A DNA stretch of 64,000 nt from Aquipseudomonas alcaligenes MRY13-0052. GTDB lineage: Bacteria > Pseudomonadota > Gammaproteobacteria > Pseudomonadales > Pseudomonadaceae. Both the position numbers and the translations under genes were made by a program. Below, in pieces: positions 4,934-37,738 of the stretch (positions are counted from its first letter, which is position 1; each line of letters starts with the position of its first letter). Below the pieces are notes generated by a model, which made no database searches, had not been told where the DNA came from, and was given only the letters and a program-made list of their open reading frames with translations. The DNA is taken from positions 1 through 64,000 of the forward strand of contig BATO01000014.1 in NCBI GenBank assembly GCA_000474255.1, written 5' to 3'.

Positions 4934-5045
4934 CCCAGCCCGCGCGAGGCGCCCATCGGGTGGCCTTGCGCGAGGCCCTGCGCCTCGTTATATGATGATC
5001 GAAATTCAAATCAGGCCGGCAGGCCGAGCGAGAAGGAAAAGTGCC

Positions 5046-16247: not shown

Positions 16248-16444
16248 TGCCTCGTCTCCTTGACTAGAAATATCCAACTCTCCAGGGGCTCGAATGAGCC
16301 ACTGGTCATTTCCAAAACACTCATCCTGATGGGGGCGAGGCGACAGTCATCCGCACAGCTCGGCAAGCCGCGTGATCCATGGAACGTTGGAGTTTCTACC
16401 GAGCGGAACAGAACACCCCTGGTACCCCAGGGCTCCACACCGCG

Positions 16445-16472
16445 GACAGGAGCGCCAATGGGCGCTCCTGTC
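16445..16472. terminator. Hairpin between the two RTX genes
   Basis: GACAGGAGCGCC and GGCGCTCCTGTC, a perfect 12-bp stem with loop AATG, 17 bases after the stop of the upstream RTX gene. The rest of the 242-base gap (16248-16489) holds no gene. It probably contains a promoter for the 1824-residue RTX gene, which would otherwise be cut off by this terminator. Confidence 0.75.
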
Positions 16473-16489
16473 GTTATCGCTGATGCAGG

Positions 16490-19400: not shown

Positions 19401-20044
19401 AGGGGATCACGGCGTTCGACGAAGGCGTTGGCTTCATTGAAGTGTTGGTTGGTGGCCACACTAATTTGTGAGCCTGCATCGGTGCCATTGATGGCTGCAT
19501 CAATTTGAGCCTGCCTATTCTTCAGGGCAGAGAAAGCGTTTCCTGCTAGACCACTTGAGACAAAACCATCTTCTTCAGGATCGAACATGTCAGCTGGATC
19601 CCAGTAGAAATCTTCCAGCTCGCCCTTAAATTCGATGAGACCGCCAAGGAAGCTGATAGATGCTTCGCCGGAGAATTTGAAGGCGCGATTGCCATCTTCA
19701 TCAATACCTGTGCTCACGGTTAACTCACTGGAATACTCAGTTCCCCCAATGACTTTTCCAGATAGACCAATAAACATGGAGTCGTAAACGATATTATTGT
19801 TTGCGTCTATCGTTCCCTTGTTTCCGAAATGAAGCGTTGCCAGTCCGCCACGAATCGGAACGTTAACCTGTTCGGTGTATTTGCCTGTCGCGGGATCGTA
19901 GCTGATGCCGAATATGCCAATATCGCCGCTGATCTTTGCTATTCCATTAGCGTCAACTTCAATTGTTGCGCTGTGATTATTGCCTTCGGCTGTTACGGAT
20001 AGCGTGCCGTCGCCATTGTTTTCGATATTCAAATTACCTGACAT
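16490..20044 (-). CDS. RTX protein, type I secreted (1184 residues)
   Basis: A second RTX protein, built like its larger neighbour. After an N-terminal beta-rich region (residues 1-190, unique here) comes the same EF-hand-like array ([56 protein letters not shown]), then a helical part, then RTX nonapeptides (GGAGNDSILG, GGKGNDTLNG) arranged in two large copies 552 bases apart. The C-terminus (from [10 protein letters not shown] to VVIAANWA) is nearly identical to the other RTX protein, marking a common export signal. ATG 20044 follows AAAAGGAATTC. Parts of the gene (about 17.94-18.56 kb and 19.44-20.04 kb) are visibly AT-richer than the surroundings, a sign of mosaic origin. It follows the hlyD-like gene by 76 bases. 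Confidence 0.88.
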   Translation of the reverse strand: MSGNLNIENNGDGTLSVTAEGNNHSATIEVDANGIAKISGDIGIFGISYDPATGKYTEQVNVPIRGGLATLHFGNKGTIDANNNIVYDSMFIGLSGKVIGGTEYSSELTVSTGIDEDGNRAFKFSGEASISFLGGLIEFKGELEDFYWDPADMFDPEEDGFVSSGLAGNAFSALKNRQAQIDAAINGTDAGSQISVATNQHFNEANAFVERRDPLSLDLDGDGIETVGANAGITFDFDGDGLKTGTGWVKGDDGFLVLDRNGNGKIDNGGELFGVDTVKANGQKASNGFDALKDFDSNGDGVFDAQDAQFANVKIWQDANQDGIAQAGELKTLVEHNIVAINLDSTASNHNSNGNLISAVGSFVRGDGSEGTVNANQSLAANLDLVSNPFYREFTDHIALDDTAKALPDMKGSGAVRDLREASMLNAELKTLLATYSQAQTREEQMGLLDQLIAEWAKSADYKTFDERIDALDDGTTDVRFQYSWEANGAQPTKAQQSTQKLLERVKALEVFNAQNILKFGKVGSGTDSLTLSLGVGTASSNSTYSTNQGSVVIDENQLGFNAGQTGLLNQAYESLKQSIYDGLLLQTRLKSYTDSIDLNFTATGLELDYDQMYALFAATANDSPFNAINDALDLSRIWTDKKTTDSLKMSFIPALAEQLSAEELNRLRNQLSQFNPQHIQLGNASNDVLIGTASNDYILGLGGNDSIIGGYGDDTLVGGKGNDTLNGHDGSDTYVFSLGDGQDTLAETYENTSGNYLYTDIIRFSEGIDVAGIRMSREGRDLTLHYSATDSITLTHWYTNPYMRIEKVEFADGSSRTINSLEMELGVAGTDGDDGFAPYGNDGAHFKGLAGNDVLNGAAGDDILDGGDDNDSLNGGTGNDTLLGGAGNDSILGGYGDDVLIGGKGNDTLDGHEGSDTYLFSLGDGQDTLTETFANGSDSYLYTDIIRFGEGIDVAGMRMSREGRNLTLHYSATDSITLTNWYTNPYMRIEKVEFADGSSRTLNSLEMELGVTGTTGDDGFGIYGNDAVHFKGLAGNDVLNGAAGDDILDGGEGNDSLNGGYGNDTYLFAKGDGQDLVADADGNDTLLFGQDISANDIWLQRNGSNLELTLRDSTDKVTINNWYSSTSNHIETIKSGDGKTLLDSQVQNLVNAMAAFAPPAGGSSHLTPEQKAQLEVVIAANWA

Positions 20045-20104
20045 TTTGAATTCCTTTTAATGCTCTGATAGTTCTGCAGCTTGTTATGGCGCGCGATTGT
20101 TTTG

Positions 20105-20133
20105 TGAGGGGGCGTAATGATCACCGCTCCCCC
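20105..20133 (-). terminator. Hairpin spanning the end of the hlyD-like gene
   Basis: On the minus strand GGGGGAGCG and CGCCCCC pair across the stop codon of the HlyD-like gene, with ACAAAAC after it. It may act as a partial terminator that lowers or separates RTX expression from the transporter genes. Confidence 0.4.
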
Positions 20134-21536
20134 AAACTCTCATCCTGATATTCCTTCAACGGACTCAGGAAATAATCGATCACCTTCCTCTTATCCGTTT
20201 TCACCTCCGCCCGCACGGCCATGCCGGGGGAGAGTTCGATGCGGTTGTCGCCGACCTGGATGCTGTTTTCCTTGAGCAGGATGCGGGTGCTGTAGACCAG
20301 GCCGCGTTTTTCGTCATCGATGGCGTCATTGGAGATGCTTTGCACGGTGCCGTGCACCACGCCGTATTTGGTGAAGGTGAAGGTCTCGACCTTGATCTCC
20401 ACTTCCTGGCCGGGGTGGACGAAGCCGATGTCCTTGTTCTCCAGCATGGCTTCCACTTCCACCGGCTGGTCGCTGGGGACGATGACCATCAGCGGCTGGG
20501 CCTCGGTGACCACGCCGCCGTTGGTGTGGATGGCCAGTTGCTGCACGGTGCCGTCCACCGGGGCGGTGAGGCGCATCAGGCGGTCGCGCTGTTCGGCCTT
20601 CTTCAGCTCCTGGGCGAGGGAGGCGGCGCGTTGTTCGGATTCGTGCTGCAGGTCGAGCATGGCGCGGCGGGTCTGGGCCAGCACGGTGTTGCGCTGGCGT
20701 TCGGCGGCGCTGCGGGCGGCGGTGAGTTCGATGACGCGGGCCTGCTGGATGGCCAGTTCACGCTCCTGGTCGAGGCGTGCCTGCTCCTTCTCCAGGTAGG
20801 CGTGCTTGGCGACGTAGGCCTTGTCCAGCAGGCGCTTGTAGTCGGCGGAGAGCTGGCGGGTGATGGGCAGGGATTCCTCCAGCTTGGCCACCCAGGCCTT
20901 GGCCGCCTGGATTTCGGCGACGCGCTGGTCGATCTCCGAGTCGGCCTGGTCGAGGGTGCTGCGCAGTTCCAGGTATTGGCCCTGCAACCAGCGTTGGGCG
21001 GCCAGTTGTTGCTCGGGGCTGGCCTCGGGGATCAGCGCGGCGAGGGAGGTGGGTTCGCCGCCGTCCTGGATGGCGTCGAGCAGGGCGCGGGCGCGGGCGC
21101 TGTCCACCTGGGCGGCGAGCAGGTCGCTCTTCAGGCGGTCGACGTCGGCACCGGTGATCTGCGCGTCGAGGTCCACCAGCAGGTCGCCGGCCTTGACCTT
21201 CTGTCCGTCGTAGACGTGGATCGCCTTGACCACCGCCACCTCGCTGGGCTGGATGATCTTGGTCTTGCCGCTGGGCACGATCTTGCCGGTGGCGGTGGCC
21301 ACCACGTCGATCTCGCCGACGCAGGCCCAGATCAGCGCGAGCACGGCGAAGGCGATGATCGCCCACTGGATGTAGCGCGGCGCCGGGTGCGGCGGCTGCT
21401 CCTGCAGGGCCAGGGCGGCGGGGAGGAATTGCACCTCGTGGCTCAGGCGCTGCGGGGCGTCCATGGCCTTGCGGTGGCGCCAGGCGTGACGCCAGGCGCT
21501 GCGGTAGCGGTTGATCAGTTCGCGTTTTGCGCTCAT
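20121..21536 (-). CDS. HlyD-family type I secretion membrane fusion protein
   Basis: A 471-residue periplasmic adaptor that links the inner-membrane ABC transporter to an outer-membrane TolC-like channel. Seen in order: a cytoplasmic basic N-terminus, one membrane segment (YIQWAIIAFAVLALIWACVG, about 55-74), the lipoyl-like half GKIVPSGKTKIIQPSEVAVVK, a long coiled-coil rich in Gln/Ala/Glu (about 125-310), the second lipoyl half LTAPVDGTVQQLAIHTNGG, and the HlyD signature region ending VIDYFLSPLKEYQDESL. It is 94 bases downstream of the ABC gene and upstream of the two RTX substrates. No TolC-type partner is in the window. Confidence 0.93.
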   Translation of the reverse strand: MSAKRELINRYRSAWRHAWRHRKAMDAPQRLSHEVQFLPAALALQEQPPHPAPRYIQWAIIAFAVLALIWACVGEIDVVATATGKIVPSGKTKIIQPSEVAVVKAIHVYDGQKVKAGDLLVDLDAQITGADVDRLKSDLLAAQVDSARARALLDAIQDGGEPTSLAALIPEASPEQQLAAQRWLQGQYLELRSTLDQADSEIDQRVAEIQAAKAWVAKLEESLPITRQLSADYKRLLDKAYVAKHAYLEKEQARLDQERELAIQQARVIELTAARSAAERQRNTVLAQTRRAMLDLQHESEQRAASLAQELKKAEQRDRLMRLTAPVDGTVQQLAIHTNGGVVTEAQPLMVIVPSDQPVEVEAMLENKDIGFVHPGQEVEIKVETFTFTKYGVVHGTVQSISNDAIDDEKRGLVYSTRILLKENSIQVGDNRIELSPGMAVRAEVKTDKRKVIDYFLSPLKEYQDESLGER

Positions 21537-21575
21537 GGCCTGGGCATCCGTGCATGGGGGGCGAGGTGCGCCCCG

Positions 21576-21598
21576 GCCCTCTCCCGGCGGGGGAGGGC
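21576..21598. repeat. Small inverted repeat between the hlyB-like and hlyD-like genes
   Basis: GCCCTC-T-CCC and GGG-GAGGGC arms. This looks like the short ccctctcccg-type dispersed element common between Pseudomonas genes. It could attenuate transcription between the two genes. Confidence 0.45.
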
Positions 21599-21630
21599 GT
21601 GGTTCGGTTCGGTCCGGGGTTGCATGCGTC

Positions 21631-23769
21631 TCAGCCTTGTTGCAGGCGGTGCAGACGCGAGTAGTGGCCGGCTTGGTGGGTCAGCAGTTCGGCATGGGTG
21701 CCCTGCTCGACGATCTGCCCGCGGTCCATCACCACGATGCGGTTGGCATCGCGTACGGCGGAGAGGCGGTGGGCGATGATGATCACCGTGCGGCCCCGGC
21801 AGATGTCCTTCATGTTCTGCTGGATGATGCGTTCGGACTCGTAGTCCAGCGCGCTGGTGGCCTCGTCGAAGATGAGGATGCGCGGGTTGCCGATCAGCGC
21901 CCGGGCGATGGCCACGCGCTGGCGTTGGCCGCCGGAGAGCGAGGCGCCGTGCTCGCCCACCACCGTGTCGTAGCCCTCGGGCAGTTCGAGGATGAACTCG
22001 TGGGCACCGGCCAGCTTGGCCGCCTGCATCACCACCTCGATGGGGGCGCCCGGGTCGGTGAGGGCGATGTTCTCGCGGATGCTGCGGGCGAACAGCATGT
22101 TGTCCTGCAGCACCACGCCTATCTGCCGGCGCAGCGAGGAGACGTCCGCCAGGGCCAGGTCCATGCCGTCCACCAGCACCCGCCCGCGCTCGGGCGTGTA
22201 GAGGCGTTGCAGCAGGCGGGTGAGGGTGCTCTTGCCGGAGCCGGAGCGCCCGACCACGCCGATCACCTCGCCGGCCTGGATGTTCAGGCTCACCCCGCGC
22301 AGCACCTCGGAGCCGTCCGGGCGGTAGCGGAAGTGCACCTGGTCGAACTCGACGTTGCCACGGATCGGCGGCAGCGCACTGCGCGCCGCCTGGGACAGCT
22401 CGGTGCGGGTGTTGAGGATGTCCCCCAGGCGCTGCACCGAGACACCGGTCTGCTGGAAGTTGGTCCACAGCTGGGCCAAGCGCATGATCGGCTGCGACAC
22501 CCGCCCGGCGAGCATGTTGAAGGCGATCAGCTGGCCGACGCTGAGGTCGCCGTCGATTACCAGCCGCGCACCCAGCCACAGGGTCGCCACGGTCACCAGC
22601 TTGCCCACCAGCCCCACGCCCTCGTTGGCGATGGTCGACAGGGTCTGGGTCTTGAAGCTCGCTGCCACGTAGCCGGCCAGCTGGTTGTCCCATTTGCGGT
22701 TGATCTGCGGTTCCACCGCCATCGCCTTGAGGGTGTCGATGCCGTTGACCGTCTCCACCAGGAAGGCCTGGTTCTCCGCACCGCGGGCGAAGCTCTCGTT
22801 GATCCGTGCGCGCAGCACCGGGGTGATGATCAGCGAAATGAGGAAGTACAGCGGCAGCGACAGCAGCACCACCAGCGTCAGCCAGCCGCTGTAGAAGAAC
22901 ATCACGGCGATGAACACCACCGAGAACAGCACGTCCAGCACCAGGGTGATGGCGTTGCCGGTGAGGAAGCTGCGGATGTTCTCCAGCTCGCGCACCCGCG
23001 CCACCGAGTCGCCCACCCGGCGCGCCTGGAAGTAGGCCAGCGGCAGGGTCACCAAGTGGCGGAACAGCCGTGAACCCAGCTCCACGTCGATGCGGCTGGC
23101 GGTGTGGGCGAACACGTAGCTGCGCAGGCCTGACAGCGCCGTCTCGAACAGCATGATGCCGAGCAGGCCGATGGCGATCACATCCAGGGTCGACAGGCCG
23201 CGGTGCACCAGCACCTTGTCCATCACCACCTGGAAGAACAGCGGCGTCAGCAGCGCGAAGATCTGCAACACGAAGGACACCAGCAGCACTTCGCCCAGCA
23301 GCTTGCGGTACTTGACGATGGCGGGGATGAACCAGGTGAAGTCGAACTTCGCCAGCTCGCCGGCCAGGGACGCCTCGGAGCGGATCAGGATCACTTCGCC
23401 GCCCCAGCGCTCGGCCAGGGCCTCGAACTCCAGCACCTCCGGGCGCTGGGCGCGCGGGTCGTGGATCAGCGCCTTGCCGTCGTCCAGCCGCGCGATGATG
23501 AAGAAGCCGCCCTCGCGGTCACAGGCGATCGCCGGCAGCGGCGTGCGCTCCAGGCGGGCGATGGTGCTGCGGGCGGGGCGTGCCTTGAGGCCGAGCTTCT
23601 TGGCGGCGAGCAGCAGCTCGGCCTTGCCGAATGGGCGGCCGTCTTCGGCGAATTCGTGGGCGAGTTGTTCGGGGGAAGCGGCGACGTTATGGAAACGCGC
23701 GAGCATGACCAGGCACGCGAGGCCCGCGTCGAGCCCTTGCCCTGGCTCGTTAGGGGTGCTGTCCTGCAT
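21631..23769 (-). CDS. Type I secretion ABC transporter/permease, HlyB type with degenerate C39 domain
   Basis: A 712-residue HlyB-like exporter. Residues 1-130 are a C39 peptidase-like domain in which the catalytic Cys position is Ala (DAGLACLVML, near 14-23) and the His region reads GGFFIIARL, so it should bind substrate without cutting it, as HlyB does. About six membrane helices follow (155-425). The ATPase domain is intact: Walker A G507-S514 (GRSGSGKS), signature LSGGQRQRVAIARA from 611, Walker B ILIFDEATSALD from 631, and the switch His in IAHRLS. It is the first gene of the minus-strand set ABC, fusion protein, RTX, RTX. An intact-peptidase bacteriocin exporter is excluded by the missing Cys. 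Confidence 0.93.
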   Translation of the reverse strand: MQDSTPNEPGQGLDAGLACLVMLARFHNVAASPEQLAHEFAEDGRPFGKAELLLAAKKLGLKARPARSTIARLERTPLPAIACDREGGFFIIARLDDGKALIHDPRAQRPEVLEFEALAERWGGEVILIRSEASLAGELAKFDFTWFIPAIVKYRKLLGEVLLVSFVLQIFALLTPLFFQVVMDKVLVHRGLSTLDVIAIGLLGIMLFETALSGLRSYVFAHTASRIDVELGSRLFRHLVTLPLAYFQARRVGDSVARVRELENIRSFLTGNAITLVLDVLFSVVFIAVMFFYSGWLTLVVLLSLPLYFLISLIITPVLRARINESFARGAENQAFLVETVNGIDTLKAMAVEPQINRKWDNQLAGYVAASFKTQTLSTIANEGVGLVGKLVTVATLWLGARLVIDGDLSVGQLIAFNMLAGRVSQPIMRLAQLWTNFQQTGVSVQRLGDILNTRTELSQAARSALPPIRGNVEFDQVHFRYRPDGSEVLRGVSLNIQAGEVIGVVGRSGSGKSTLTRLLQRLYTPERGRVLVDGMDLALADVSSLRRQIGVVLQDNMLFARSIRENIALTDPGAPIEVVMQAAKLAGAHEFILELPEGYDTVVGEHGASLSGGQRQRVAIARALIGNPRILIFDEATSALDYESERIIQQNMKDICRGRTVIIIAHRLSAVRDANRIVVMDRGQIVEQGTHAELLTHQAGHYSRLHRLQQG

Positions 23770-24077: not shown

Positions 24078-27542
<3,465 letters not shown>

Positions 27543-27547
27543 AGCAG

Positions 27548-27570
27548 GGCGCGGCGAGGGTCGCCGCGCC
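27548..27570. terminator. Shared terminator hairpin, kinase and propeller operon
   Basis: GGCGCGGCGA-GGG-TCGCCGCGCC, a perfect 10-bp stem filling the 33-base gap between convergent genes. It can stop transcription from either side, though no long U-run follows. Confidence 0.65.
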
Positions 27571-27575
27571 GCTAT

Positions 27576-30554
27576 TCAGCTGCGCAGTTCACGGAGTTCG
27601 CTGGTCAGGGTGTCCAGGCGCAGCAGGCGCCCGGTGCAGTCGAACAGCCGCCAGTCGTGCTCCAGGGAGCGGCTTTGCAGGGGCGTATCGGACGGCCATT
27701 CCAGCTCGGCGCAGGTCTTCAGGGTGCGCGGGTTGACCAGCCGCCAGTGCGTCATCTCCGTATCCGTCGCTGTGCCGAGGAGCAGCCAGCCGTCGGCCAG
27801 CTTGAGGTTCGTCTTGTCGACCTGGTCCGCGCTGACGTCCGGCAGGGCGATCTCGCGGCTGCCGCCGTGGGTGTGTATCAGCAGGCTCTGCTCGCCTGCC
27901 TCGTTGCCGCGGAACCAGACTTCCAGCAACCCGCCGTCCGGGTTGGGGACGTAGAACCCCCCTTCATGGCGGGACGGCAGCACCTCGTAGCGATGGGTCA
28001 GGCGCCGCGTCGGCAGCGCGTAGCGCCAGAGCTCGGTGCCGCCGCGGCCATCTTCCACCAGCCATTGCTCGAAGCCGGCGCAGCCCTGGAAGGCGAGCAA
28101 GTGCCCCGGCAGGTCGCTGACGTGCCAGACCACGGCGAAGGCCCGGTCGACATCCACCACGCGTACGCTGCGGCTGTTGCCGATGGTCCAGGAGGTGCCG
28201 TCGAATTCATAGGCGTGGAAGTCCATCGCCAGCACGCCGAGGTCGGTGGCCTTGCGGCTGACCAGGTCGAGCTTGGTGATGCGCCAGACCTGGTCGCGCC
28301 GGGCCAGCGCCAGGGCCGCGCGGCGGTTGCGGGCGAGGACGATGCGGTGGCCGGGCTCGGCGAAGCGGAACAGCGTTCGGCCCAGGTCGTCCAGCACCGC
28401 CAGGCCGGCTTCACCCAGGGCCACTAGGGTGCGCCCCTCGGCCAGGGGCGCGGCGTCGAGGATGGCCCGCTGGCCGGCCGGCGGAGCCTGCCACTGCAGA
28501 GGCGGGTTCTGTTGCAGCAATGGCGAGGCGTCCTGTTCCGGCAGCCCCTTGGGCGGCAGGTCGGCTTGCAGCAGCTTGTCCTGGCTGAGGTTGAGCAGGC
28601 TCTGCAGGTCGCGCCGCGACAGGTTGACCCGGCTTCGGGCGTGGTCTTCCAGCAGGGGCGGCAGTACCAGCCGCGCCAGCCGTTGCAGCTGTTCGTTGCT
28701 GCGGGTGCGGGGCACGGTGCCGACCCGGTTCAGCGCCTGGGCCAGGGCCAGGCGCTCGCCGGCCAGTGTCGGGTCGTCCCGCAGCGACTTCAGGCGTGCC
28801 GCGTAGGCATCCAGGGTGTCGGGCAGCAGCACGGCGCGCTTCACCAGGGCTTCGGCACTGAGGCCGCCGCCGGCTTCCTCGGCGCACAGCAGCCACTGGG
28901 CGGCCAGTTCCTGCTTGTCCGGCAGCGGCCAGATGACGTCCACGGCTTCCAGCCAGTCGCCTCGGGCCACCAGCATCTCGGCCCAGTCCTGGCGCAGGCG
29001 CTGCGCGGCCTGGGGCCACTTCTTCTCGAGCATCTCCACGGCATTGGCGAAGGCGTTGTCGCGGCGCGCCACCTGCAGCGCGGTGCGCCAGTCGCCGGCC
29101 AGGCAGTGCAGGCGCACGATGCTGTCGGCCGGCATGTCCCAGGCCAGCGCCAGGTCGGCGGCCTGGCGGAAGCGCAGGTGGCGCTCCAGGTAGTCCAGGG
29201 CTTCCTGGCGAGCCTTGAGCAGCTCGGCGAGGATGAACACCGCTTCGTCGATGCGCCCCTCGCGGTCGAGCTTCTCGAAGTGCTGGCGATAGAGCGTGCG
29301 CAGGTGCGCTTCGAGGTCCTCGCCCAGGGAGATGGCGGTGCCCGGGCCCGTGCGCTTGCCGAGGTCGAGATCGTCACGCCGCGTCGGCGTGCCGAAGGCC
29401 TGGCCCAGGTTGCCCTGCTCGCCGCCCAGGGGCAGCGCGTGGCGCAGGGCTTCGGCGATGTCGCCTTCCTCGAACATCTTCAGCATGCGCCGCATGTAGG
29501 CACTCTGGCGGCGGTTGAGCAGCTCGCTGAACTTCGAGGTGATGGCCAGGGAGGTGAGGAAGCGCCGCCAGGCGCTCGGCCCGCGTGGCGCCTGGGTGGC
29601 GCGGGACTTGATGGGCGGGGCGGCAGGGGCCTGGGCCGGTACCTGCGCCGCCGCTTGAGCAGGCGCCGAGGGCTGGGCGGTCCAGCCTTGCGGGTCGCCC
29701 TTGAAGAAGCGTCGCAGCGCGGCGAAGAACAGCATCGCGATAAGCACCGCAAGGGTGACCAGGATGACGATCAGGACGGTGTCCGAACCGTCGCTTGGTG
29801 CTTCCACCACCGGTGCCACGTTGAGGGTGGGCGGCGGGAGGTTCGTTGGTTGCCTCATCGCATCGCGGATGAAGTTGCCCACCATCATGATGGCGAACAG
29901 CGACAGCCAGAAGGCCCAACTGGCGCTGATCCCCGACTTGCCGGAGACAGCGCGTGAGGGGGCCTTGCGCGGGGTAGGTTTGCTGGCGGTGCCTTGGCCG
30001 GCGGCGGCCTGCTGCAGCAGCGACTTGAGGAAGGCGTCGCGCTCCGGGCTCGGCGGCTTGACCTTGCCATCGAGGATGGCGTGGATGTCCTTGATCGGCG
30101 GCAGCACCTCCAGCATCGGCGGCGGCAGGATGGCACGGCAATCGTAGGTGTCCAGCAGCGGGTAGCCGTCGAGGGCGATGTGCTCCTCCAGGGCCAGGCG
30201 CCGGGCATCGACCAGGCGCAGTGCCTGCACCCGGCCGCCACGCACCAGCCAGAGATCGGCGGCCGGCAGCGTTGCGCGCTCTTCGGCGGTCAGTTCCGCA
30301 GAGCACAGGCCTCCATTCTTCAGCGCCAGCAGCGGCCAGCCGACCAGGCCGTCACAGTCCATGGGCCGGGCGCTGGCGAAACGCAGCAGGTCACCTTCGG
30401 CGAAGCGCCAGGCGCTGGCGTCGGCGTGCCAGTGGTGCAGCAGCAACGCCGTGCGTTCCTCGGCGCCCAGCCAGTCGGCCGGCAACCAGAGCCCGGCCAC
30501 CTTGTGGCGGCCCTTGAGCAGCGGCTGGCGAACCTGCGCATCCGGCGCGTTCAT
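27576..30554 (-). CDS. Membrane-anchored ternary-system protein: bpX-like N-terminus, alpha-solenoid, beta-propeller
   Basis: A 992-residue protein, the last gene of the MoxR operon. Residues 1-150 form a small domain (KVAGLWLPADWLGAEERTAL, then VQALRLVDARRLALEEHIAL) that I take to be one of the bpX domains described for MoxR-vWA-beta-propeller systems (bpX6 is my best guess). Two membrane segments follow (about 211-229 and 259-281), then an Ala/Leu-rich helical solenoid (about 320-660; YLERHLRFRQAADLALAWDM, LAGDWRTALQVARRDNA), then a C-terminal region of repeated short strands (about 700-992; GRTLVALGEAGLAVLDDLG, WRITKLDLVSRKATDLGV) that looks like a beta-propeller. Its ATG overlaps the stop of the preceding gene by four bases. 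No enzyme motif is visible; a scaffold role is inferred. Confidence 0.65.
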   Translation of the reverse strand: MNAPDAQVRQPLLKGRHKVAGLWLPADWLGAEERTALLLHHWHADASAWRFAEGDLLRFASARPMDCDGLVGWPLLALKNGGLCSAELTAEERATLPAADLWLVRGGRVQALRLVDARRLALEEHIALDGYPLLDTYDCRAILPPPMLEVLPPIKDIHAILDGKVKPPSPERDAFLKSLLQQAAAGQGTASKPTPRKAPSRAVSGKSGISASWAFWLSLFAIMMVGNFIRDAMRQPTNLPPPTLNVAPVVEAPSDGSDTVLIVILVTLAVLIAMLFFAALRRFFKGDPQGWTAQPSAPAQAAAQVPAQAPAAPPIKSRATQAPRGPSAWRRFLTSLAITSKFSELLNRRQSAYMRRMLKMFEEGDIAEALRHALPLGGEQGNLGQAFGTPTRRDDLDLGKRTGPGTAISLGEDLEAHLRTLYRQHFEKLDREGRIDEAVFILAELLKARQEALDYLERHLRFRQAADLALAWDMPADSIVRLHCLAGDWRTALQVARRDNAFANAVEMLEKKWPQAAQRLRQDWAEMLVARGDWLEAVDVIWPLPDKQELAAQWLLCAEEAGGGLSAEALVKRAVLLPDTLDAYAARLKSLRDDPTLAGERLALAQALNRVGTVPRTRSNEQLQRLARLVLPPLLEDHARSRVNLSRRDLQSLLNLSQDKLLQADLPPKGLPEQDASPLLQQNPPLQWQAPPAGQRAILDAAPLAEGRTLVALGEAGLAVLDDLGRTLFRFAEPGHRIVLARNRRAALALARRDQVWRITKLDLVSRKATDLGVLAMDFHAYEFDGTSWTIGNSRSVRVVDVDRAFAVVWHVSDLPGHLLAFQGCAGFEQWLVEDGRGGTELWRYALPTRRLTHRYEVLPSRHEGGFYVPNPDGGLLEVWFRGNEAGEQSLLIHTHGGSREIALPDVSADQVDKTNLKLADGWLLLGTATDTEMTHWRLVNPRTLKTCAELEWPSDTPLQSRSLEHDWRLFDCTGRLLRLDTLTSELRELRS

Positions 30555-32389
30555 GGCTGGGCTCCTGGGTCATCAGCCAGGGTGCATTGGGCGCGCAGGC
30601 GTATCACACGGCGCTGGCTGCAATACACCACCAGCTCGCGGGCATGGGTAAGGATGGCCAGCAGGCCGCTGGCGGGGCAGACGCTGAGGCGGGCGATGGG
30701 GGCGGGGGAGTCGAAGAACCTGTGGTGGGTGTTGCCGTCGTACAGGCTCAGGCCCTTGCGGTCGCTGGTCATCAGCACCAGAGACAGGTCGCCGCTCTCG
30801 CGGTTGGACACCAGGCCCTGAGCGCTCCAGCCGCCCGGAACATCGAGCATCCAGTTTTCCGCGCCTTGGTCCTCGCGGTATTGGGGACGGCAGAGCCGCC
30901 AGCGTTCCTGGGGGGTGGTCTCCACCAACAGGGCGCATGCGGGAATGAAGGAGGAGTTGGTGACCCGGGCCATGAAGGCCTTGCTGGGCTTACCGGCTTC
31001 ACCCAGGCGCAGGGGGCGGCTGGTCCGGTTGACTGCAATCCCTTGCAGGACGAAGCGCTGGTCGCGCTTGTACAGGTAGTAGACCCGCCCGTCCTCGAAG
31101 CTCGCCATGGCCAGCACGTCGGATTCGATCCGATGCAGCACAGGTGGTTCATGGTTGGGGGCTTTCGCGTCGCGGATCCAGCTCAGCAGGTGTCCGGCGG
31201 CATCCAGCAGGTACAGACGCTGGCCGGCATAGTTGCTGTTGACCAGGGCCATTGGCAGCAGGTTGGCGGTGCCCGGTGGGGCTTTGAGCTCCTCCAGCGG
31301 CGGGCGCTTGATGGCGCCGAAGCCCTGCAACTGCCAGAAACGCAAGTAGGCGCCGGTGTCCACGATGGCGCCGAGGCTCTTGCCCTGGAAGGCCATGGCC
31401 AGCGGCTGGTTGCCGGCGGGCCAGTTCTGCCGGCGCACCTTGGTGACGATGTTCTTCTTGCCGTGGGGCGGTGGCAGCTTGAACACCAGCGCGCCCTTCT
31501 GGTCGAGCAGCGTCAGCGCCACCATCTGCCCGGAGCGGGCGATCACCGGCGGCAGGGTCAGGGCCACTCGCGGGGCGTGCAGCACCCCAGGTTGGGCGAG
31601 TGCCTGTGGCCCGGGCAGGGTCATCAGGCCGAACTGCCCGCTCAGCAGGCGCTTGCCGATGGCGGGTGGCGGCAGCGGCAGGTCCAGGCTGCGACGGCTG
31701 CGGGCCTGTTGCAGGGTGACCTCCAGCGCCTTGCCATCGAGGTGGGTGGTGATCTGCAGCCCGTGGCTGATGCCCGCGTCTTCGGCCGTACCGCCGATCA
31801 GCCAGCGCTCGTCCGGCTCCGTCGGCAGCGCCTCGATCATGGCCTGCCAGGTTTGCCAGTGGGCGGGTTCGGCAGCCGTCCAGCTGCGTGCCTCGAGCAC
31901 CCGGTTGAGGTCGGCGGGGCCTTGCAGGCCCTCATGCCAGGCCGGGCGTTGGAGGATGCCCCAGCGCAGCTCGCCGTCGGCTTCCCGCGCGCGGCGGGCG
32001 AGGAGGATCAGCATCGCCAGGTGGGCCAGACGCGGTGCGCCCAGTTGTCGGGGGCCGGCGTCGAACAGGGCGACGATCAGCCGGCTGCTGTGCCGTGCAC
32101 GCTGCTGGGGGGCGAGGAACAGGTGCTCGCCGCCGGCGGCGCGGCGGAGGAATTCATCGGGAATCTCGTCGGCCAGCAGCCATTCGCTGGAGAGCAGCCG
32201 CTCATAGGGCCCGCGTCGTTGCAGGTCACCCAGGCCATCGGGTTCGGGCGGGCCGTTGGGCGTGCGCTCGCGGAAGGGGCCGACCAGGGCTTGCAGGCGG
32301 CCGAGCATCGCGGCGAGCTGTTCGGCGAGTTCCGGAGCCACGCCTTCCAGCAGGGGGTGCCAGGGCTTCAGGGCGTCGGGCAATTGCAT
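30551..32389 (-). CDS. vWA-like domain fused to beta-propeller, ternary-system core protein
   Basis: A 612-residue protein. Near residues 100-150 the segment RLIVALFDAGPRQLGAPRL followed by LAMLILLARRA resembles a von Willebrand A fold, but the metal site DxSxS is replaced by DAGPR, so it probably lacks a normal MIDAS. From about 240 onwards repeated strand pairs (VALTLLDQKGALVFKLPP, RLYLLDAAGHLLSWI, GRVYYLYKRDQRFVLQGIAV, GLSLYDGNTHHRFFDSP) indicate a beta-propeller. I chose ATG 32389 (MQLPDALKPW), two bases after the preceding stop; the frame is open further upstream but out of character there. The arrangement MoxR, small protein, vWA/propeller matches published MoxR-vWA-beta-propeller ternary systems. 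Confidence 0.65.
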   Translation of the reverse strand: MQLPDALKPWHPLLEGVAPELAEQLAAMLGRLQALVGPFRERTPNGPPEPDGLGDLQRRGPYERLLSSEWLLADEIPDEFLRRAAGGEHLFLAPQQRARHSSRLIVALFDAGPRQLGAPRLAHLAMLILLARRAREADGELRWGILQRPAWHEGLQGPADLNRVLEARSWTAAEPAHWQTWQAMIEALPTEPDERWLIGGTAEDAGISHGLQITTHLDGKALEVTLQQARSRRSLDLPLPPPAIGKRLLSGQFGLMTLPGPQALAQPGVLHAPRVALTLPPVIARSGQMVALTLLDQKGALVFKLPPPHGKKNIVTKVRRQNWPAGNQPLAMAFQGKSLGAIVDTGAYLRFWQLQGFGAIKRPPLEELKAPPGTANLLPMALVNSNYAGQRLYLLDAAGHLLSWIRDAKAPNHEPPVLHRIESDVLAMASFEDGRVYYLYKRDQRFVLQGIAVNRTSRPLRLGEAGKPSKAFMARVTNSSFIPACALLVETTPQERWRLCRPQYREDQGAENWMLDVPGGWSAQGLVSNRESGDLSLVLMTSDRKGLSLYDGNTHHRFFDSPAPIARLSVCPASGLLAILTHARELVVYCSQRRVIRLRAQCTLADDPGAQP

Positions 32390-32391
32390 GG

Positions 32392-32826
32392 TCAGCGTTC
32401 CTGCCAGTGGTCGAGGATGCGCGCCAGGTGGCCCTCGGAGAGCGGCAGCTGGCGGTCCAGCGGCACCGCCCTGGCCGGCGTGGGCCAGAGCAGCAGGGGA
32501 GCGCGGCCGTGGCGCCGGGTGAGGGCGCGGGCGAGCAGGTCCAGCGGCGCATCGGGGCTCAGCCGGGTCGGCAACCAGAGTTCGGGGGCCAGCTCGCAAG
32601 GGGCGGCGTAGTCGATGCCGTCCACCCAGGGCAGGGCCGCGGGCTCGCCGATCACCACCAGCAGGTCATCGCTGGCGGTGGCGTGCAGGCTCGCCAGCTG
32701 TTCATCGGGCAGGGCTGACAGGCGCGCATGCAGGCGCCGGGCGGCTTCGCCCCAGGCCACGGCGGCACGGGGTTCCAGGGCCTGGGCGCGGGGTTGCCAG
32801 CGCCAGGCCTGCTTCAGGGGGCTCAT
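32392..32826 (-). CDS. Small ternary-system protein (bpX5-like)
   Basis: A 144-residue protein between the MoxR and vWA genes, coupled to both: its ATG overlaps the MoxR stop by four bases, and the next gene starts two bases after its stop. It starts SPLKQAWRWQPRAQAL, and has a middle stretch LVVIGEPAALPWVDGIDYAAP and a C-terminal PLDRQLPLSEGHLARIL. I recognise the pattern, with moderate confidence, as the bpX5-type domain of MoxR-vWA-beta-propeller systems. No catalytic or metal-binding motif is evident. A bridging or specificity role between ATPase and propeller proteins is inference. Confidence 0.55.
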   Translation of the reverse strand: MSPLKQAWRWQPRAQALEPRAAVAWGEAARRLHARLSALPDEQLASLHATASDDLLVVIGEPAALPWVDGIDYAAPCELAPELWLPTRLSPDAPLDLLARALTRRHGRAPLLLWPTPARAVPLDRQLPLSEGHLARILDHWQER

Positions 32827-33932
32827 GCGGGTGTGGCGAGGCGGGCGACCAGGCGCTCACGCAGCTCGGCCAGCATCGGCGGCAGGGCGTCGGCGAGGAA
32901 GTTGGCGTCGATCTCCCGCAGCACCGCTTCCACGCTCGCGCCCTGGGCGTCGTCCAGGCAGGCGCGGGCCTCTTCGGCCAGGCGGCTGACCCGCGACAGC
33001 GGCTGCAGGGTGGCTTCTTCCACGGCGTTGAACAGGTTGTCGTTGCTGGCATGGGCGAACAGCTCGCGCAGCACCTCGCGGCCGTGCTGTTGCGCCTCCT
33101 GGGTCGGCAGCACGTAGAGCAGCGGCCAGAGGTCGGCCTCGGTGGCGTGCAGGCGCCCGCCGAGCAGCGCGGCGGCGGCGATCAGGCGCTGGGACTTGAC
33201 GATGCGCCGGTCCGAGAGCTGCACGCCGGCCTGGCGCAGGCGGCGGATGGCATCGGCCAGGGCCGGGCGCGCGGCGTCCAGGTTCACCGTTTTCATGGCG
33301 CGGCCGAGGGTGTCGAGGTAACCCAGGTTGTGCTGCCCGACGATGGGCGTCTGCTCGGCCTGCCAGCCGCCGGCGAGCATGGCTTCGAGCTGGTGGTCCG
33401 GCACCGCCTCGACGAACAGGTGCAGCAGGAAGCGGTCGCCGAAGGCGGCCAGGGCCTCGTCCTCGGGCAGGCCGTTGGCGGCGCCGACGCAGACCCGCAG
33501 CGGGCAGTCGAGCTGGGTGTGGCCACGGCGGAAGCGCCGTTCGTTGAGCACGCCGAGCAGGGTGTTGAGGATGGCGGTGGAGCCGAGGAACACCTCGTCG
33601 AGGAAGGCGATGTCGGCTTCCGGCAGCATGCCGCTGACGTCGGTTTCCACGGTGCCTTCGCGCAGCTTGCGCAGGTCCACCGGGCCGAACAGTTCCGACG
33701 GTTCGGTGAAACGCCCCAGCAGGTATTCGAAATAGCGCCCGCCCATGGCCTGGGCGACGCGGCGCACCACGGCGCTCTTGGCGGTGCCGGGCGGGCCGAC
33801 CACCAGCAGGTGCTCCTGAGCCACGGCGGCGAGGACGATGAGTTCGGCGAGCTGGTTGCGGCCGATAAGGCCGGTGGTGGCGGTGCGGATGGCGTCCCTG
33901 ATGTGCCGGGCGGCCTCGTGGATAGCGTTCAA
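32823..33932 (-). CDS. MoxR-family AAA+ ATPase
   Basis: A 369-residue MoxR-type ATPase, a class that acts as a chaperone with vWA-domain partners. Walker A is GPPGTAKS (46-53), Walker B IAFLDEVF (108-115, acids 112-113), with VGAANGLPEDEALAAFGDRF as sensor-1/arginine-finger region and a helical C-terminal lid. No ATG fits the conserved N-terminus: the frame begins at TTG 33932, with AGGGAAGAAGC upstream, and reads NAIHEAARHIRDAI. A TTG start is therefore the best call. It is the first of four overlapping or abutting genes (MoxR, small protein, vWA/propeller, membrane propeller). It begins 93 bases beyond the patatin terminator, so it has its own promoter in 33933-34025. Confidence 0.88.
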   Translation of the reverse strand: MNAIHEAARHIRDAIRTATTGLIGRNQLAELIVLAAVAQEHLLVVGPPGTAKSAVVRRVAQAMGGRYFEYLLGRFTEPSELFGPVDLRKLREGTVETDVSGMLPEADIAFLDEVFLGSTAILNTLLGVLNERRFRRGHTQLDCPLRVCVGAANGLPEDEALAAFGDRFLLHLFVEAVPDHQLEAMLAGGWQAEQTPIVGQHNLGYLDTLGRAMKTVNLDAARPALADAIRRLRQAGVQLSDRRIVKSQRLIAAAALLGGRLHATEADLWPLLYVLPTQEAQQHGREVLRELFAHASNDNLFNAVEEATLQPLSRVSRLAEEARACLDDAQGASVEAVLREIDANFLADALPPMLAELRERLVARLATPA

Positions 33933-34025
33933 GACTGCTTCTTCCCTGTGAGCGAGGTGCGGATTTTCCGGGAAAAGCAGGCGCTGTCAAAGCGCTATTA
34001 CGGCAGTTCGTCGGCTAACGCACAT

Positions 34026-34057
34026 CCCGGCCCGGCTCCGTGTGGAGCCGGGCCGGG
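34026..34057 (-). terminator. Strong hairpin after the patatin gene
   Basis: CCCGGCCCGGCTCC and GGAGCCGGGCCGGG form a perfect 14-bp stem with loop GTGT, four bases after the patatin stop. It separates the patatin transcript from the MoxR operon, though the stem lacks a good U-tract and read-through is possible. Confidence 0.75.
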
Positions 34058-34061
34058 CGCC

Positions 34062-36737
34062 TCAGTCGATGGTGGGCGAGGCCAGGCGCACGCCGCGCGG
34101 CGGCTTGGCCAGGTAGCTCCACAGGGCATTGGCGATGGCGTTGTGGTTGAGGCCGTCGCCGAACAGCTGCTGGCCGATGCACAGGCCGAGCTGGCGGTAG
34201 CTCTCGAACTGGGCCTCGTCGAAGAACTGGTCGGCGGTGCTCTGGTTGGGGAACACCGGGTTGGCGCGGGCGTAGTTGAACACGTCCACCGGCAGCGACT
34301 CGATCAGCCGCGGCTTGAGCAGGAGGATGCGGCTGGTGAGGGTGCGCGGCGCCTCGGCATCGTCGCGCTCGCCGCTGCTGAACACGTTGAGCAGCATGGC
34401 GCAGCGACGGTCGCCGGCGGCCGGTGGCTGGCGGAAGCCATCGAGGCTGGAGAACACCTGGGACAGCAGCGGGTGGTCGAGCACGTCGCTGTCTTCCTCG
34501 ATCTCCAGGGCGTGGTCGATGCGCGACAGGCGGATGAGGTTGGCCAGGTCGTCGAAGCGGTAGTCCGGGTCGCAGCCGCAGTCGCACATGACGATCAGCT
34601 CGATGTCCCGCTGCGGGCGCACCAGCTCGTAGGTGGCGGTGTTCTCGAAGTGCCCGCCGTCGGTGAGGTAGAGCTTGTCGCGACGATGGCCGTGGAAGTG
34701 CGCGGTGAGTTCGTAGAACAGGTAGGTCTGCGCCGGCAGCCAGCGCGACAGGCGCTCGGAGTTTTTCGACGGGCCGGCCTGGCGTGGCGGGAAGTTGCTC
34801 TGCCACCAGGTGCCCAGGCGCACGTTGGCCAGGCCCAGGGCCAGGGAAGTGCCGAGGCTGGTGGCTCGGCCCAGGCCGGTGCTGAAGGCGGCGCCGGAGG
34901 TGGCCACCCACTGGCCGAGGGACAGCGGCTGGTTGATCTCGCCCTTGCCGCTGGGCGGGATGCGCACCTTGCGTTCGCCATCGAGGATGAAGCTCACCGC
35001 TTCGGCGTCCGGGTTGCCCGGGGCGTACCAGTAGGGCGCCACGCACAGCGGCTTGCCCTTGCGGTCGCGCTGCACCAGCTGCTCGGAGGGGTCCACGGTG
35101 AGGTTCATGGTGACGTTGATCAGGTGCAGCGGGCCGGCGGTGCGGGTGCGGTAGTAGGCGTCCAGGGCGATGTCGTCGCGGGACAGGGTCTGCGCCACGC
35201 TCATGCGCTTGCGGCTCTGCCGGCTGGGCACGTCGAAGCGCTGGCCGTTGGAGGCGCCGAGGTAGGCGCGGGTCAGGCGCGCGGCGTAGAAGGCTTGCAG
35301 GGTGGAGAGGTTGATGAAGCCGATGAACTGGCCGGAGACCCACGCCAGCAGCGCGGCGACCACCGCCAGGCCGATGAGGCGCTGCAGGGCGAAGGGCGGC
35401 ATGGCGTCCGGGCCGGGTACCTGGCCGTTCCAGGCCACCCATTGCACCAGCAGGCCCCAGACCAGGGCTATGCACACCAGCATCACGGTGCCGGCGACCA
35501 GGGCGATCACATCCAGCGGCAGCTTGCTCAGCCAGCTGGGCAGCGGCTTGTCGTCGGAGGAGCGGGCCAGGTGGCGGGCGATCCAGGCCAGCGCCGGCAG
35601 CAGCGCGGCGGGGGCGGAGGCCTGCCAGTAGCCCTGGGCGAGCACCACATAGAGCTCCTGGGCCAGTTGGTGGAGCAGCGCCAGGGCCAGCAGGGCAGCG
35701 GTGAAGGTGATGGACTGGCTCAGGGCGCGGGTCACCCGCAGGCGGTAGTTGCGCACGTTGTTGGCGTCGAGGCCGGCGTCGTCGCGGCTCGGTTTGCGTT
35801 CCTGGGTGAACACCAGCGCGGCGCACCATAGCAGCCCCAGCACGGTGACGACGATCACCAGCCACAGCAGGATTTCCACCGGGTTGGTGGTGTCGGGCGT
35901 GTGGGATTGCAGGTAGATGGCGGGGATGGCCATGGCGATGATGATCACCACCGCGCAGAGGGTCGCCCAGTTGGCCAGGGCTGGGGGTTCGTCCTGGCTC
36001 TTGCGCGAGTAGATCAGCCAGTAGGCGAGCATCAGCGGCGCCACGCTGAGCAGCGTCACTACGCCGGGCACCAGCAGCAGGCTGCCGCAGAAGGGACTGC
36101 CCGGCCAGAAATGGCAGACGGCGCCCTGGGTGAGGGCGATCAGGGCCAGCACCAACAGCATCGGCATGCCGATCACGTACTGCACCGAGAGCCAGTTGCG
36201 CCAGGTCATCGCCAGGGCGTAGATCAGGTCGCCGGCGCCGGTGGGCGTCAGGTAGCGGCCGTTCTCCCGCAGCCAGGCGGTGGGGCCGTCACCCACCGGG
36301 GCGGCCTGGTAGTTGTCGGAGGAGTGGATGCGCCCCGGCGGCTGGTAGCGCATCACCCGGTAGGCGTCGAGGGCGGCCTGGCGGGCCTTTTCCTGCTCGT
36401 CGCCATTGACCGGGCGCAGGCGCTCGGGCTGGAACAGGCTGGAGAAGAACGAGCCCATGTAGCCGCCGCCGCTGACGGTAGAGAGGTAGTCGAAGCGGGG
36501 CAGCAGGCGGGCGCGGGGATCGTCTTCGCTGTTCTTCGGCTGGCGGTTGGCGCCGGGGTCGACGGGCGCGCGGGCCAGGGCCTGGAGCACGCCGAAGCAG
36601 AAGGTGGCGCTGCGGATGCCGCCGCCGGAGAGGGCGACGGCCCAGGGGCGGCGCGGCGACTCGTTGTCGGTGTCGAGGCCGAGGGCCTTGCGGCGCCAGG
36701 TGATCCGGTCCTGTTCCGCCTTGTACTGGTCTTCCAT
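34062..36737 (-). CDS. Patatin-like phospholipase with a transmembrane domain inserted between the catalytic residues
   Basis: An 891-residue protein. ATG 36737 (MEDQYKAEQDR) follows AGGGAGCGGCGG. The N-terminus has the oxyanion motif LSGGGIRSATFCFGVLQAL (36-54) and the nucleophile elbow YLSTVSGGGYMG, with Ser89 as likely nucleophile. Some eight hydrophobic helices lie between residues 184 and 476 (for example MLLVLALIALTQGAV and LDVIALVAGTVMLVCIALVW). The catalytic Asp appears only later, Asp693 in YLTDGGHFENTATYEL. A C-terminal alpha/beta part follows to 891. It should be an integral-membrane Ser-Asp lipid acyl hydrolase; the active site probably faces the cytoplasm. It lies directly upstream of, and on the same strand as, the MoxR ternary-system operon. 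A housekeeping lipase remains possible. Confidence 0.82.
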   Translation of the reverse strand: MEDQYKAEQDRITWRRKALGLDTDNESPRRPWAVALSGGGIRSATFCFGVLQALARAPVDPGANRQPKNSEDDPRARLLPRFDYLSTVSGGGYMGSFFSSLFQPERLRPVNGDEQEKARQAALDAYRVMRYQPPGRIHSSDNYQAAPVGDGPTAWLRENGRYLTPTGAGDLIYALAMTWRNWLSVQYVIGMPMLLVLALIALTQGAVCHFWPGSPFCGSLLLVPGVVTLLSVAPLMLAYWLIYSRKSQDEPPALANWATLCAVVIIIAMAIPAIYLQSHTPDTTNPVEILLWLVIVVTVLGLLWCAALVFTQERKPSRDDAGLDANNVRNYRLRVTRALSQSITFTAALLALALLHQLAQELYVVLAQGYWQASAPAALLPALAWIARHLARSSDDKPLPSWLSKLPLDVIALVAGTVMLVCIALVWGLLVQWVAWNGQVPGPDAMPPFALQRLIGLAVVAALLAWVSGQFIGFINLSTLQAFYAARLTRAYLGASNGQRFDVPSRQSRKRMSVAQTLSRDDIALDAYYRTRTAGPLHLINVTMNLTVDPSEQLVQRDRKGKPLCVAPYWYAPGNPDAEAVSFILDGERKVRIPPSGKGEINQPLSLGQWVATSGAAFSTGLGRATSLGTSLALGLANVRLGTWWQSNFPPRQAGPSKNSERLSRWLPAQTYLFYELTAHFHGHRRDKLYLTDGGHFENTATYELVRPQRDIELIVMCDCGCDPDYRFDDLANLIRLSRIDHALEIEEDSDVLDHPLLSQVFSSLDGFRQPPAAGDRRCAMLLNVFSSGERDDAEAPRTLTSRILLLKPRLIESLPVDVFNYARANPVFPNQSTADQFFDEAQFESYRQLGLCIGQQLFGDGLNHNAIANALWSYLAKPPRGVRLASPTID

Positions 36738-37093
36738 CCGCCGCTCCCTGGTCGTTGTAGGTCTTCGCTGAAGTCCGCCTAGTAAAGCAGGAGTCGGGCC
36801 GATTGCCATTACGGCAAGCGGGCGGCAGGGGCCTGCCGCCTCCGGCAAGCCCTGGCCTCGCCGGAGGCGCGTAGTGGGCTACAAGCCGCGCCCGGCGTGG
36901 GTTTGCAAGCGATTGAAGGCAAAGGTTTTTGTCGCCGGATGCCGGTGTGGTGGGGCAGGGCTGGCACGGCCATTGCTCCCCAGGCCCTGTGCTTGAAATT
37001 CCGTATGGCAGCACACGCCGGCTTGGTGCAGTTGCAAGCCCCAGCCCTCCACCCCCGGCAGCGGTCCGCCGGGCAAGGCCAAAAGGAAACCCC
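36738..37093. promoter_or_regulatory. Divergent intergenic region, patatin gene and hypothetical gene
   Basis: 356 bases with no gene I can support. It should contain the promoters of the patatin gene (minus) and the hypothetical gene at 37094 (plus). No long palindrome was found. AAAAGGAAACCCC before 37094 is the ribosome site of that gene. Confidence 0.45.
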
Positions 37094-37738
37094 ATGAAGA
37101 TCAACGCAGGAGTGAACGACTGGTATTCCTACATCAGGCAGTCCAACGCTATGAAAGACCCCTCGATCTCCGCCCTCGACAAGTCTGTCCAGGTCCAGGA
37201 GGAGAACGCTTCCCGCTACCAGGACAGGGTGTCCATTTCCGCGGAGGCCAAGAGCCTCCTCAGCCAGGTCGATGGAGGTGACCCAGCCCTCGCCGACGAT
37301 CCGTTGAGCCGGGTGGCGCCCGAGGCGACCTACAGCCCTGCCAGCCTGCAATCGTCTGCCGCTGCCAGCGAGCCGGAAGCCCAGGCCGCCACCCGCGATG
37401 GGGTGGCCGTCGACTCATCGGGCCCGCCCTGGCGCGTCTTTTCCGCTGGGCAGCCCCTGACCGCCACCAGTCCGGCCGAGGCTGAGGCGCGTATCGACGA
37501 GATCACCCGCCAACGCGTCGCCCTCTATCAGAAGGCCATGGAGGCTGGTGCCAGTGACGAGGAGATCGGGCGGCAGATGGCCGCCTTCAACGCGGCGTTG
37601 CCGGATGACTACAAGGCCCTTGCCGGCAAGACCGAAGACCCCGCCGCCGCGCTGCGGGTGATGACCGAAGGCGCGGGACTGGCGGTCAGCCAGGAGCCCG
37701 ACGCGCGGCTGAGGTCGCTGGGCATGCAAGTGGGCTGA
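37094..37738 (+). CDS. Hypothetical protein
   Basis: A 214-residue soluble protein I do not recognise. ATG 37094 follows AAAAGGA at good spacing. It begins MKINAGVNDWYSYIRQSNAM and has the short motif RVSISAEAKSLLSQ near residues 45-58, a pattern often seen in small Pseudomonas proteins of unknown role. A low-complexity Ala/Ser/Pro stretch (about 75-125) leads to a helical C-terminal half, EAEARIDEITRQRVALYQKAMEAGASDEEIGRQMAAF. There is no signal peptide or membrane segment. It stands alone between divergent and convergent neighbours, followed by a strong terminator. Confidence 0.7.
   Translation: MKINAGVNDWYSYIRQSNAMKDPSISALDKSVQVQEENASRYQDRVSISAEAKSLLSQVDGGDPALADDPLSRVAPEATYSPASLQSSAAASEPEAQAATRDGVAVDSSGPPWRVFSAGQPLTATSPAEAEARIDEITRQRVALYQKAMEAGASDEEIGRQMAAFNAALPDDYKALAGKTEDPAAALRVMTEGAGLAVSQEPDARLRSLGMQVG

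Follow-up and report, generated by a model that had tools for sequence, protein, structure and literature searches.

The subject of this study is a four-gene operon on the minus strand of a 64,000-nucleotide stretch of Aquipseudomonas alcaligenes MRY13-0052 DNA (contig BATO01000014.1, positions 1 to 64,000; hereafter the window), which belongs to a genome of 6.88 Mb. We assign this operon, at positions 27576-33932, with near certainty to the MoxR-vWA-beta-propeller ternary systems, with the composition bpMoxR-bpX5-P2-bpX6, where P2 denotes the protein encoded between the bpX5 and bpX6 genes. The operon is a fresh member of an already described system type; what is new is a peak of strain-level divergence in the C-terminal half of P2. 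Our reading as a whole, i.e. a four-gene system with its own promoter-like site, in which P2 would provide recognition and the bpX6 protein the response, and of which an adjacent patatin gene is independent, is put forward with a confidence just short of even, its separate parts being graded where they are discussed.

The four genes encode a bpMoxR AAA+ ATPase (32823-33932, 369 aa, with a TTG start), the bpX5 protein (32392-32826, 144 aa), P2 (30551-32389, 612 aa) and the bpX6 protein (27576-30554, 992 aa). The MoxR and bpX5 genes overlap by four bases, as do those for P2 and the bpX6 protein, and two bases separate bpX5 from P2; the coordinates thus confirm the layout given by an earlier reading of the DNA alone (the sequence-only reading). 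Its identification of a MoxR-vWA-beta-propeller operon with bpX domains was likewise borne out by profile searches, in which Pfam matches exceeded the family cut-offs for bpX5 (PF19921, E = 4.3e-54) and for bpX6 (PF19922, 8.8e-64, residues 8-177) and bpMoxR (PF20030) was matched at 9e-91, P2 giving none. PF20030 also matches ordinary MoxR proteins (in a survey of 321 genomes of the class it did so in 283, and in 12 of 14 controls, and these matches were excluded from our counts), so that membership rests on the high score and the P-loop rather than on the bare match. This P-loop, GPPGTAKS, is identical in all eight MoxR sequences aligned, the alignments used throughout covering part of the loci (eight rows for MoxR, 14 for bpX5, 17 for P2, 15 for the bpX6 protein and seven for the patatin), and it matches the GXXXTAKS given in the main text of PMC7159879. 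The bpX5 rows share the conserved stretch LPW..G..Y.......P.L.LPT. Comparison of bpX5 with PDB sequence profiles returned nothing useful, and a PADLOC scan of five proteins gave no matches beyond weak ones of the MoxR (best 5.5e-4).

The distribution of the operon was followed through bpX6, which scored over the cut-off in 17 of 398 genomes of the family, a sample drawn from a larger group and counted without three sub-cut-off matches (G033, G190 and G058), and in 3 of 398 genomes of the phylum, both counts including the window's own genome. To the 17 family loci were added L114, which lies in a different family of the class, and six found among 144 relatives of one genome (G301), giving 24 operon loci picked by bpX6; tblastn was used for loci in genomes of differing base composition. 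All 24 contain matches to each of the four operon proteins, always on a single strand and without change of order; the gene set and order are fixed, and the overlaps or near-contacts between genes suggest coupled translation. In L115, which is more distantly related, MoxR, bpX5 and P2 are retained along with a third component.

Kaur et al. (2020; PMC7159879) described the MoxR-vWA-beta-propeller ternary systems (their vWA-MoxR subsystem 4) from comparative genomics, and in the main text argue for a conflict role from genomics, call the systems enigmatic for want of a conventional effector and count plant-pathogenic Pseudomonas and Xanthomonas amongst the carriers. The window operon agrees with the account given there in its bpMoxR with GXXXTAKS, in its bpX5 and bpX6 domains (names that are those of Pfam and are absent from that main text), in a third component with an N-terminal domain and a membrane segment, and in having no conventional effector. 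It differs from it in that the vWA and propeller domains of P2 are undetected by profile, and in that the variable parts here are the P2 C-terminus and the bpX6 linker, whereas the main text of PMC7159879 stresses the N-terminal region of the third component. A comparable set is tabulated for P. syringae clade 2b-a, in which a single region of genome plasticity, RGP_32, holds a ravA ATPase, bpX5, a third gene and bpX6 together, the listed set containing no patatin; these are table rows, for which no functional claim is made there (PMC9677677). Among the titles and abstracts listed by a literature search, to whose scope most subscription journals did not belong, none was of an experimental study of a MoxR-bpX5-P2-bpX6 system.

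Directly upstream of the operon, on the same strand and ending 129 bases before MoxR, lies the gene for a membrane patatin-like hydrolase (34062-36737, 891 aa), as the sequence-only reading had reported; simple hydropathy gives the protein seven hydrophobic segments. Its match to the Pfam patatin family PF01734 lies close to the threshold (6.3e-6, 27.0 bits against a cut-off of 27.7, and 28.6 bits, over the cut-off, in a genome scan), and comparison with PDB sequence profiles returned nothing useful. Patatins rely on an oxyanion motif GGGxR, a nucleophilic serine and a catalytic Asp-Gly. The candidate nucleophile Ser89 and catalytic Asp693 stand in stretches (STVSGGG and DGGHFEN) that are invariant in all seven aligned rows, and SGGGIRS is found in six of the seven, the remaining row ending short there; a threonine, not a glycine, precedes the serine by two residues, TVSGGG replacing GxSxG. 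Each row has six to eight hydrophobic segments between nucleophile and aspartate. By these motifs and segments the protein belongs to a family of membrane patatin-like hydrolases found in Pseudomonas and, amongst the Burkholderiales, in Cupriavidus and others; of its 79 loci compared (L035-L113), 78 have no operon beside them.

The sequence-only reading took this patatin for the effector of the MoxR operon; on that view the operon would switch it on. There is something to be said for such a link: all three genomes of the genus that carry the operon have the patatin next to it and in the same orientation (amongst 18 genomes of the genus bpX6 was found in three and the patatin in four), the patatin of P. 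otitidis, a member of the same genus, is still 72% identical, and in the family survey the two occur together in three genomes, against about 0.6 expected from 17 and 14 of 398. However, these three co-occurrences come from one genus, and two of them from one species. Across the family the operon lacks a patatin in 14 of 17 genomes and the patatin lacks the operon in 11 of 14 (ten of the 14 patatin matches having at least 49% identity and four 36-37%). By locus, the patatin adjoins 3 of the 24 operon loci, all in the window's genus, and is absent beside 21; for the six loci from relatives of G301 the check covered 20 kb per locus, and in L029 and L031 the contig breaks off a short way upstream of MoxR, although neither of the respective genomes (G386 and G286) gave a patatin match. 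A scan of public genomes from the patatin side, covering 79 loci out of 342 relatives, some with flanks of less than 10 kb, placed operon proteins within the fetched flanks of one locus (L035, from P. otitidis) and of none of the other 78. The refuting condition that the sequence-only reading had set for itself thus went against the effector role.

The same independence is seen in close relatives. One genome of the window's genus, G017, has a patatin 93% identical to that of the window, with the same neighbours on both sides but without the operon: its alignment to the window breaks off where the patatin gene ends and is taken up again where the histidine kinase gene on the far side ends, and between the two genes lies an unrelated reading frame (L011:12268-12885, 205 codons as scanned) that has no Pfam match at E ≤ 0.01. 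From this genome, in which the patatin stands alone, the operon was probably gained or lost independently of its neighbour. Patatin matches were found in 39 plasmid records, of which three extend over at least 80% of the protein, all in Cupriavidus replicons of 2.6-2.8 Mb, and the main text of PMC7159879, searched for both terms, contains neither 'patatin' nor 'bpX'. With a separate promoter-like site before MoxR (see below) also standing against it, we reject the patatin as effector, which is now very improbable, and consider it highly probable that the protein is an independent neighbour and no part of the MoxR system. A genus-specific, acquired link between patatin and operon is possible.

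The promoter-like site in question, TTGACA-16-GAAAAT (33963-33990, minus strand), resembles a sigma70 promoter, lies just upstream of MoxR and is the sole such site in 27400-37200, where 0.1 would be expected from shuffled sequences. The patatin-MoxR spacer of P. otitidis is much changed, yet TTGACA is kept there identically together with AAAATCCGC, CAAAAT taking the place of GAAAAT; upstream of MoxR in 14 other Pseudomonadaceae loci, weaker sites (7-8 of 12 matches) occur in nine and none in five. On this evidence the operon appears to have a putative promoter of its own, conserved in P. otitidis. The 129-nucleotide spacer folds at -64.7 kcal/mol (z -4.67) and contains a GC hairpin (34026-34057, minus strand) with a perfect 14-bp stem, a 4-base loop and no T-run, from which the sequence-only reading argued against simple co-transcription with the patatin. 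The hairpin is real and the conclusion probably right; nevertheless, the hairpin is not conserved, its left arm being absent in P. otitidis, and the conserved promoter-like site is the better evidence.

Divergence is distributed unevenly along the operon. Over 23 of the 24 loci (frameshifted L131 was left out of the comparisons of identity and of synonymous divergence, dS), mean pairwise identity was 0.83 for MoxR and 0.60 for bpX5, and in P2 it was 0.68 for residues 1-205, 0.49 for 206-375 and 0.40 for 376-612; in the bpX6 protein it was 0.53 for the bpX6 domain, 0.31 for the linker (178-330), 0.63 for the solenoid part and 0.49 for the C-terminal part. The window was also compared with a genome of the same species (G008), to which 57,058 bases aligned; the median difference per 300 bases was 1%, with a peak of up to 22% at 30.5-31.4 kb, i.e. 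in the C-terminal half of P2. For residues 376-612 (30551-31264, minus strand) nonsynonymous divergence (dN) was 0.157 and dS 0.37, a dN/dS of about 0.42, against a dS of 0.013 for P2 residues 1-375 and about zero for MoxR and bpX5 (all within 0-0.03). We take so high a dS to mean that a divergent allele was exchanged in, and that selection on point changes is not the whole explanation.

Comparable maxima appear in a second lineage, a cluster in Pseudomonas, for which profiles over 20 kb were computed with unaligned stretches left out. Loci L018 and L021 differ by 18-32% over the C-terminal half of P2, against mostly 2-12% outside it, with a second spike of 16-32% in the bpX6 linker, and L021 and L023 by 22-41% across a large part of P2 and into the beginning of the bpX6 gene, with one other stretch, of 29%, near 2.4 kb. 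The dS of P2 residues 376-612 was 0.98 in the former pair, against 0.32 for MoxR, and 1.79 in the latter, against 0.38. Sixteen close pairs (MoxR dS below 0.6; not independent of one another) were compared over nine segments, and P2 residues 376-612 had clearly the highest dS in six of them, namely the window with G008 and five pairs within L018, L021, L023 and L024, and marginally the highest in one more (L009 with L114).

Whether this pattern reflects selection for diversity is a separate matter, and the peak may instead be due to chance, in that a small number of tracts, unrelated to one another, were acquired by recombination with divergent donors, a reading to which we give a substantial probability, if somewhat less than an even one. 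Divergent tracts do occur elsewhere in the window: the comparison with G008 reaches 32% in the adhesin region at 15.5-18.5 kb (which has repeats and aligns poorly) and 20% at 48.5-49.1 kb, and shows patches of 8-11% in 2.2-7.8 kb and one further stretch above 8% at 55.4 kb. In addition, P2 residues 376-612 do not have the highest dS in 9 of the 16 close pairs, including the window with P. otitidis (L010), L023 with L024, L026 with L027, L026 with L028 and L020 with L031, which amounts in effect to two lineages with the P2 peak and others without, five of the six clear pairs belonging to one cluster, and the dN/dS within the window/G008 peak is below 1. Chance would have to account, however, for the position of the maxima, which in both L018/L021 and L021/L023, where alignment is good, lie in P2 and in the N-terminal part or linker of the bpX6 protein (the next highest values elsewhere being 15% and 29%), and for the window/G008 peak lying on the same part of P2.

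With these points on both sides, we consider it quite possible, though not the better half of the case, that the C-terminal half of P2 is a recognition surface or module, and for P2 the strain-level peak lends some support to the sequence-only reading, which saw in the propeller proteins the sensors of the trigger. A more specific proposal, that this presumed propeller is a polymorphic recognition module exchanged by recombination, in the manner of an allelic immune receptor, around a nearly fixed MoxR-bpX5-vWA core, is more doubtful and would be advanced only tentatively. The nearest parallel is in the VMAP ternary systems, which share the MoxR-vWA logic and in which a vWA protein with a variable domain has been proposed as antigen sensor; they differ in that diversity-generating retroelements act there on C-type lectin domains (PMC10907252), whereas the P2 peak between the window and G008 contains all twelve substitution types. 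Mutation of P2 of the retroelement type was rejected on that ground. Silent donor cassettes for the C-terminal half were also rejected, as four genomes (G000, G008, G004 and G314) contain one match each; two others (G301 and G346) have one strong and one weak match each (E 0.21 and 0.39), and operon-less G017 has one match of 25% identity (E 0.006). Since no second strong copy was found in these seven genomes, any donors would be expected in other strains.

As a preliminary account of how such a system might work, we take the operon to encode an AAA+ machine for surveillance close to the membrane, where the C-terminal half of P2 would recognise a variable ligand and the bpX6 protein carry the response. 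MoxR proteins form AAA+ rings that remodel a client through a vWA partner, and by analogy the MoxR ring here may act on its client through the vWA part of P2. The bpX6 protein could dock to P2 propeller to propeller, which in most members would take place at the inner membrane, with the C-terminal half of P2, to judge from its evolution, presenting the surface for a foreign or rival-derived ligand. ATP hydrolysis might then set a threshold, beyond which the bpX6 protein would alter the membrane or bring in a partner, an output step that we regard as speculative and rather improbable in this form. The membrane anchor that the sequence-only reading had assigned to the fourth protein is supported by two hydrophobic segments in the bpX6 protein (residues 211-229 and 260-278, by simple hydropathy).

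A number of results weigh against this account. The role of P2 was assigned by gene position and from the family description of Kaur et al., by which P2 would consist of a degenerate vWA domain (LFDxGP, at about residues 100-200) and a C-terminal propeller, and the bpX6 protein would continue after its hydrophobic segments with a solenoid and a C-terminal propeller; the labels 'vWA-like/propeller' and 'solenoid/propeller' of the sequence-only reading rest on the same description and were not confirmed by profiles. P2 matched no Pfam family at E ≤ 1, nor at E ≤ 10, and its 17 homologues gave DUF7407 in three, Shufflon_N in two and VMAP-M20 in one (best E 0.0096). Against PDB sequence profiles P2 had one match, at chance level, and its own profile did not match one FtsH-system ivWA protein and yielded nothing useful against that of the bpX6 protein. 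Beyond its N-terminal domain the latter showed weak matches in some of 15 homologues (TPR_GEMI5 in two, best 7.2e-4; TPR_ELP1 in one, 0.28; a propeller model in one, 0.11), with nothing useful from PDB sequence profiles. Pfam, PDB and profile comparisons thus prove a vWA, TPR or propeller domain in neither protein. The LFDxGP stretch of P2 is nearly invariant, with D, G and P identical in all 17 rows, and may be a metal-ion-dependent adhesion site (MIDAS) minus its serines. Both bpX6 hydrophobic segments are absent in L114, L115, L136 and frameshifted L131, and only one is seen in each of L019, L022 and L133; as the pair is missing from some members, a membrane-mediated response may not be general. 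Finally, the bpX6 linker is more variable than the P2 C-terminus; of six neighbour genes scanned, three are for transporters and the others for a beta-lactamase-family protein, a GFA-type enzyme and a histidine kinase; and PADLOC matches were obtained for three of ten scanned neighbours (two adjacent genes of L022, and pVip at 3.1e-4).

These observations bear on an alternative in which the operon is a housekeeping chaperone. RavA-ViaA pairs a MoxR AAA+ protein with a vWA protein and is not known to include bpX proteins; in a similar manner MoxR and the vWA part of P2 might assemble or load a membrane enzyme, with the propeller proteins as scaffold and the P2 peak a product of relaxed constraint and ordinary recombination. 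RavA is indeed the best NCBIfam relative of the window MoxR, although far below the cut-off (156.1 of 681 bits), the best conserved parts of the operon are MoxR and the N-terminal part of P2, and scanned neighbours in several Pseudomonas loci are transport and metabolism genes. The bpX6 protein, moreover, matched none of 50,697 phage records and one of 72,556 plasmid records, over 21% of its length, which likewise detracts from a role in conflict. A housekeeping function fits less well with the sporadic distribution described above, with high-dS divergence localised to one and the same part of P2 in two lineages, and with the plasticity-region location listed for P. syringae (PMC9677677), and we regard the chaperone as a minority possibility, unlikely but deserving of consideration. 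If instead the polymorphic-module proposal for P2 is correct, this would be a MoxR-vWA sensor diversified without any retroelement. For proposed conflict systems without a conventional effector, removal of the patatin leaves the P2 C-terminus as a concrete strain-variable domain in a Pseudomonas operon.

Several further loci were noted during the analysis. In the window, a gene for a CHASE3-GAF histidine kinase with three receiver domains (24078-27542) is convergent with the operon, which sits between it and the patatin gene; the kinase is kept in both G017 and P. otitidis. A type I secretion locus at 10773-23769 comprises genes for two large minus-strand proteins, HlyD and a peptidase-C39 ABC transporter, the large protein gene at 16490 encoding RTX repeats; within this locus 10925-15537 gave no alignment to G008. 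Elsewhere, a genome of the same class contains an FtsH-type ternary system (L118:803-6072; fvmX7, a MoxR and ivWA), and the two genes beside the bpX6 operon in L022, a Pseudomonadaceae locus (4830-6084), match mad2 (2.8e-13) and MkoB (1.7e-7), the strongest defence-type matches of the ten neighbours.

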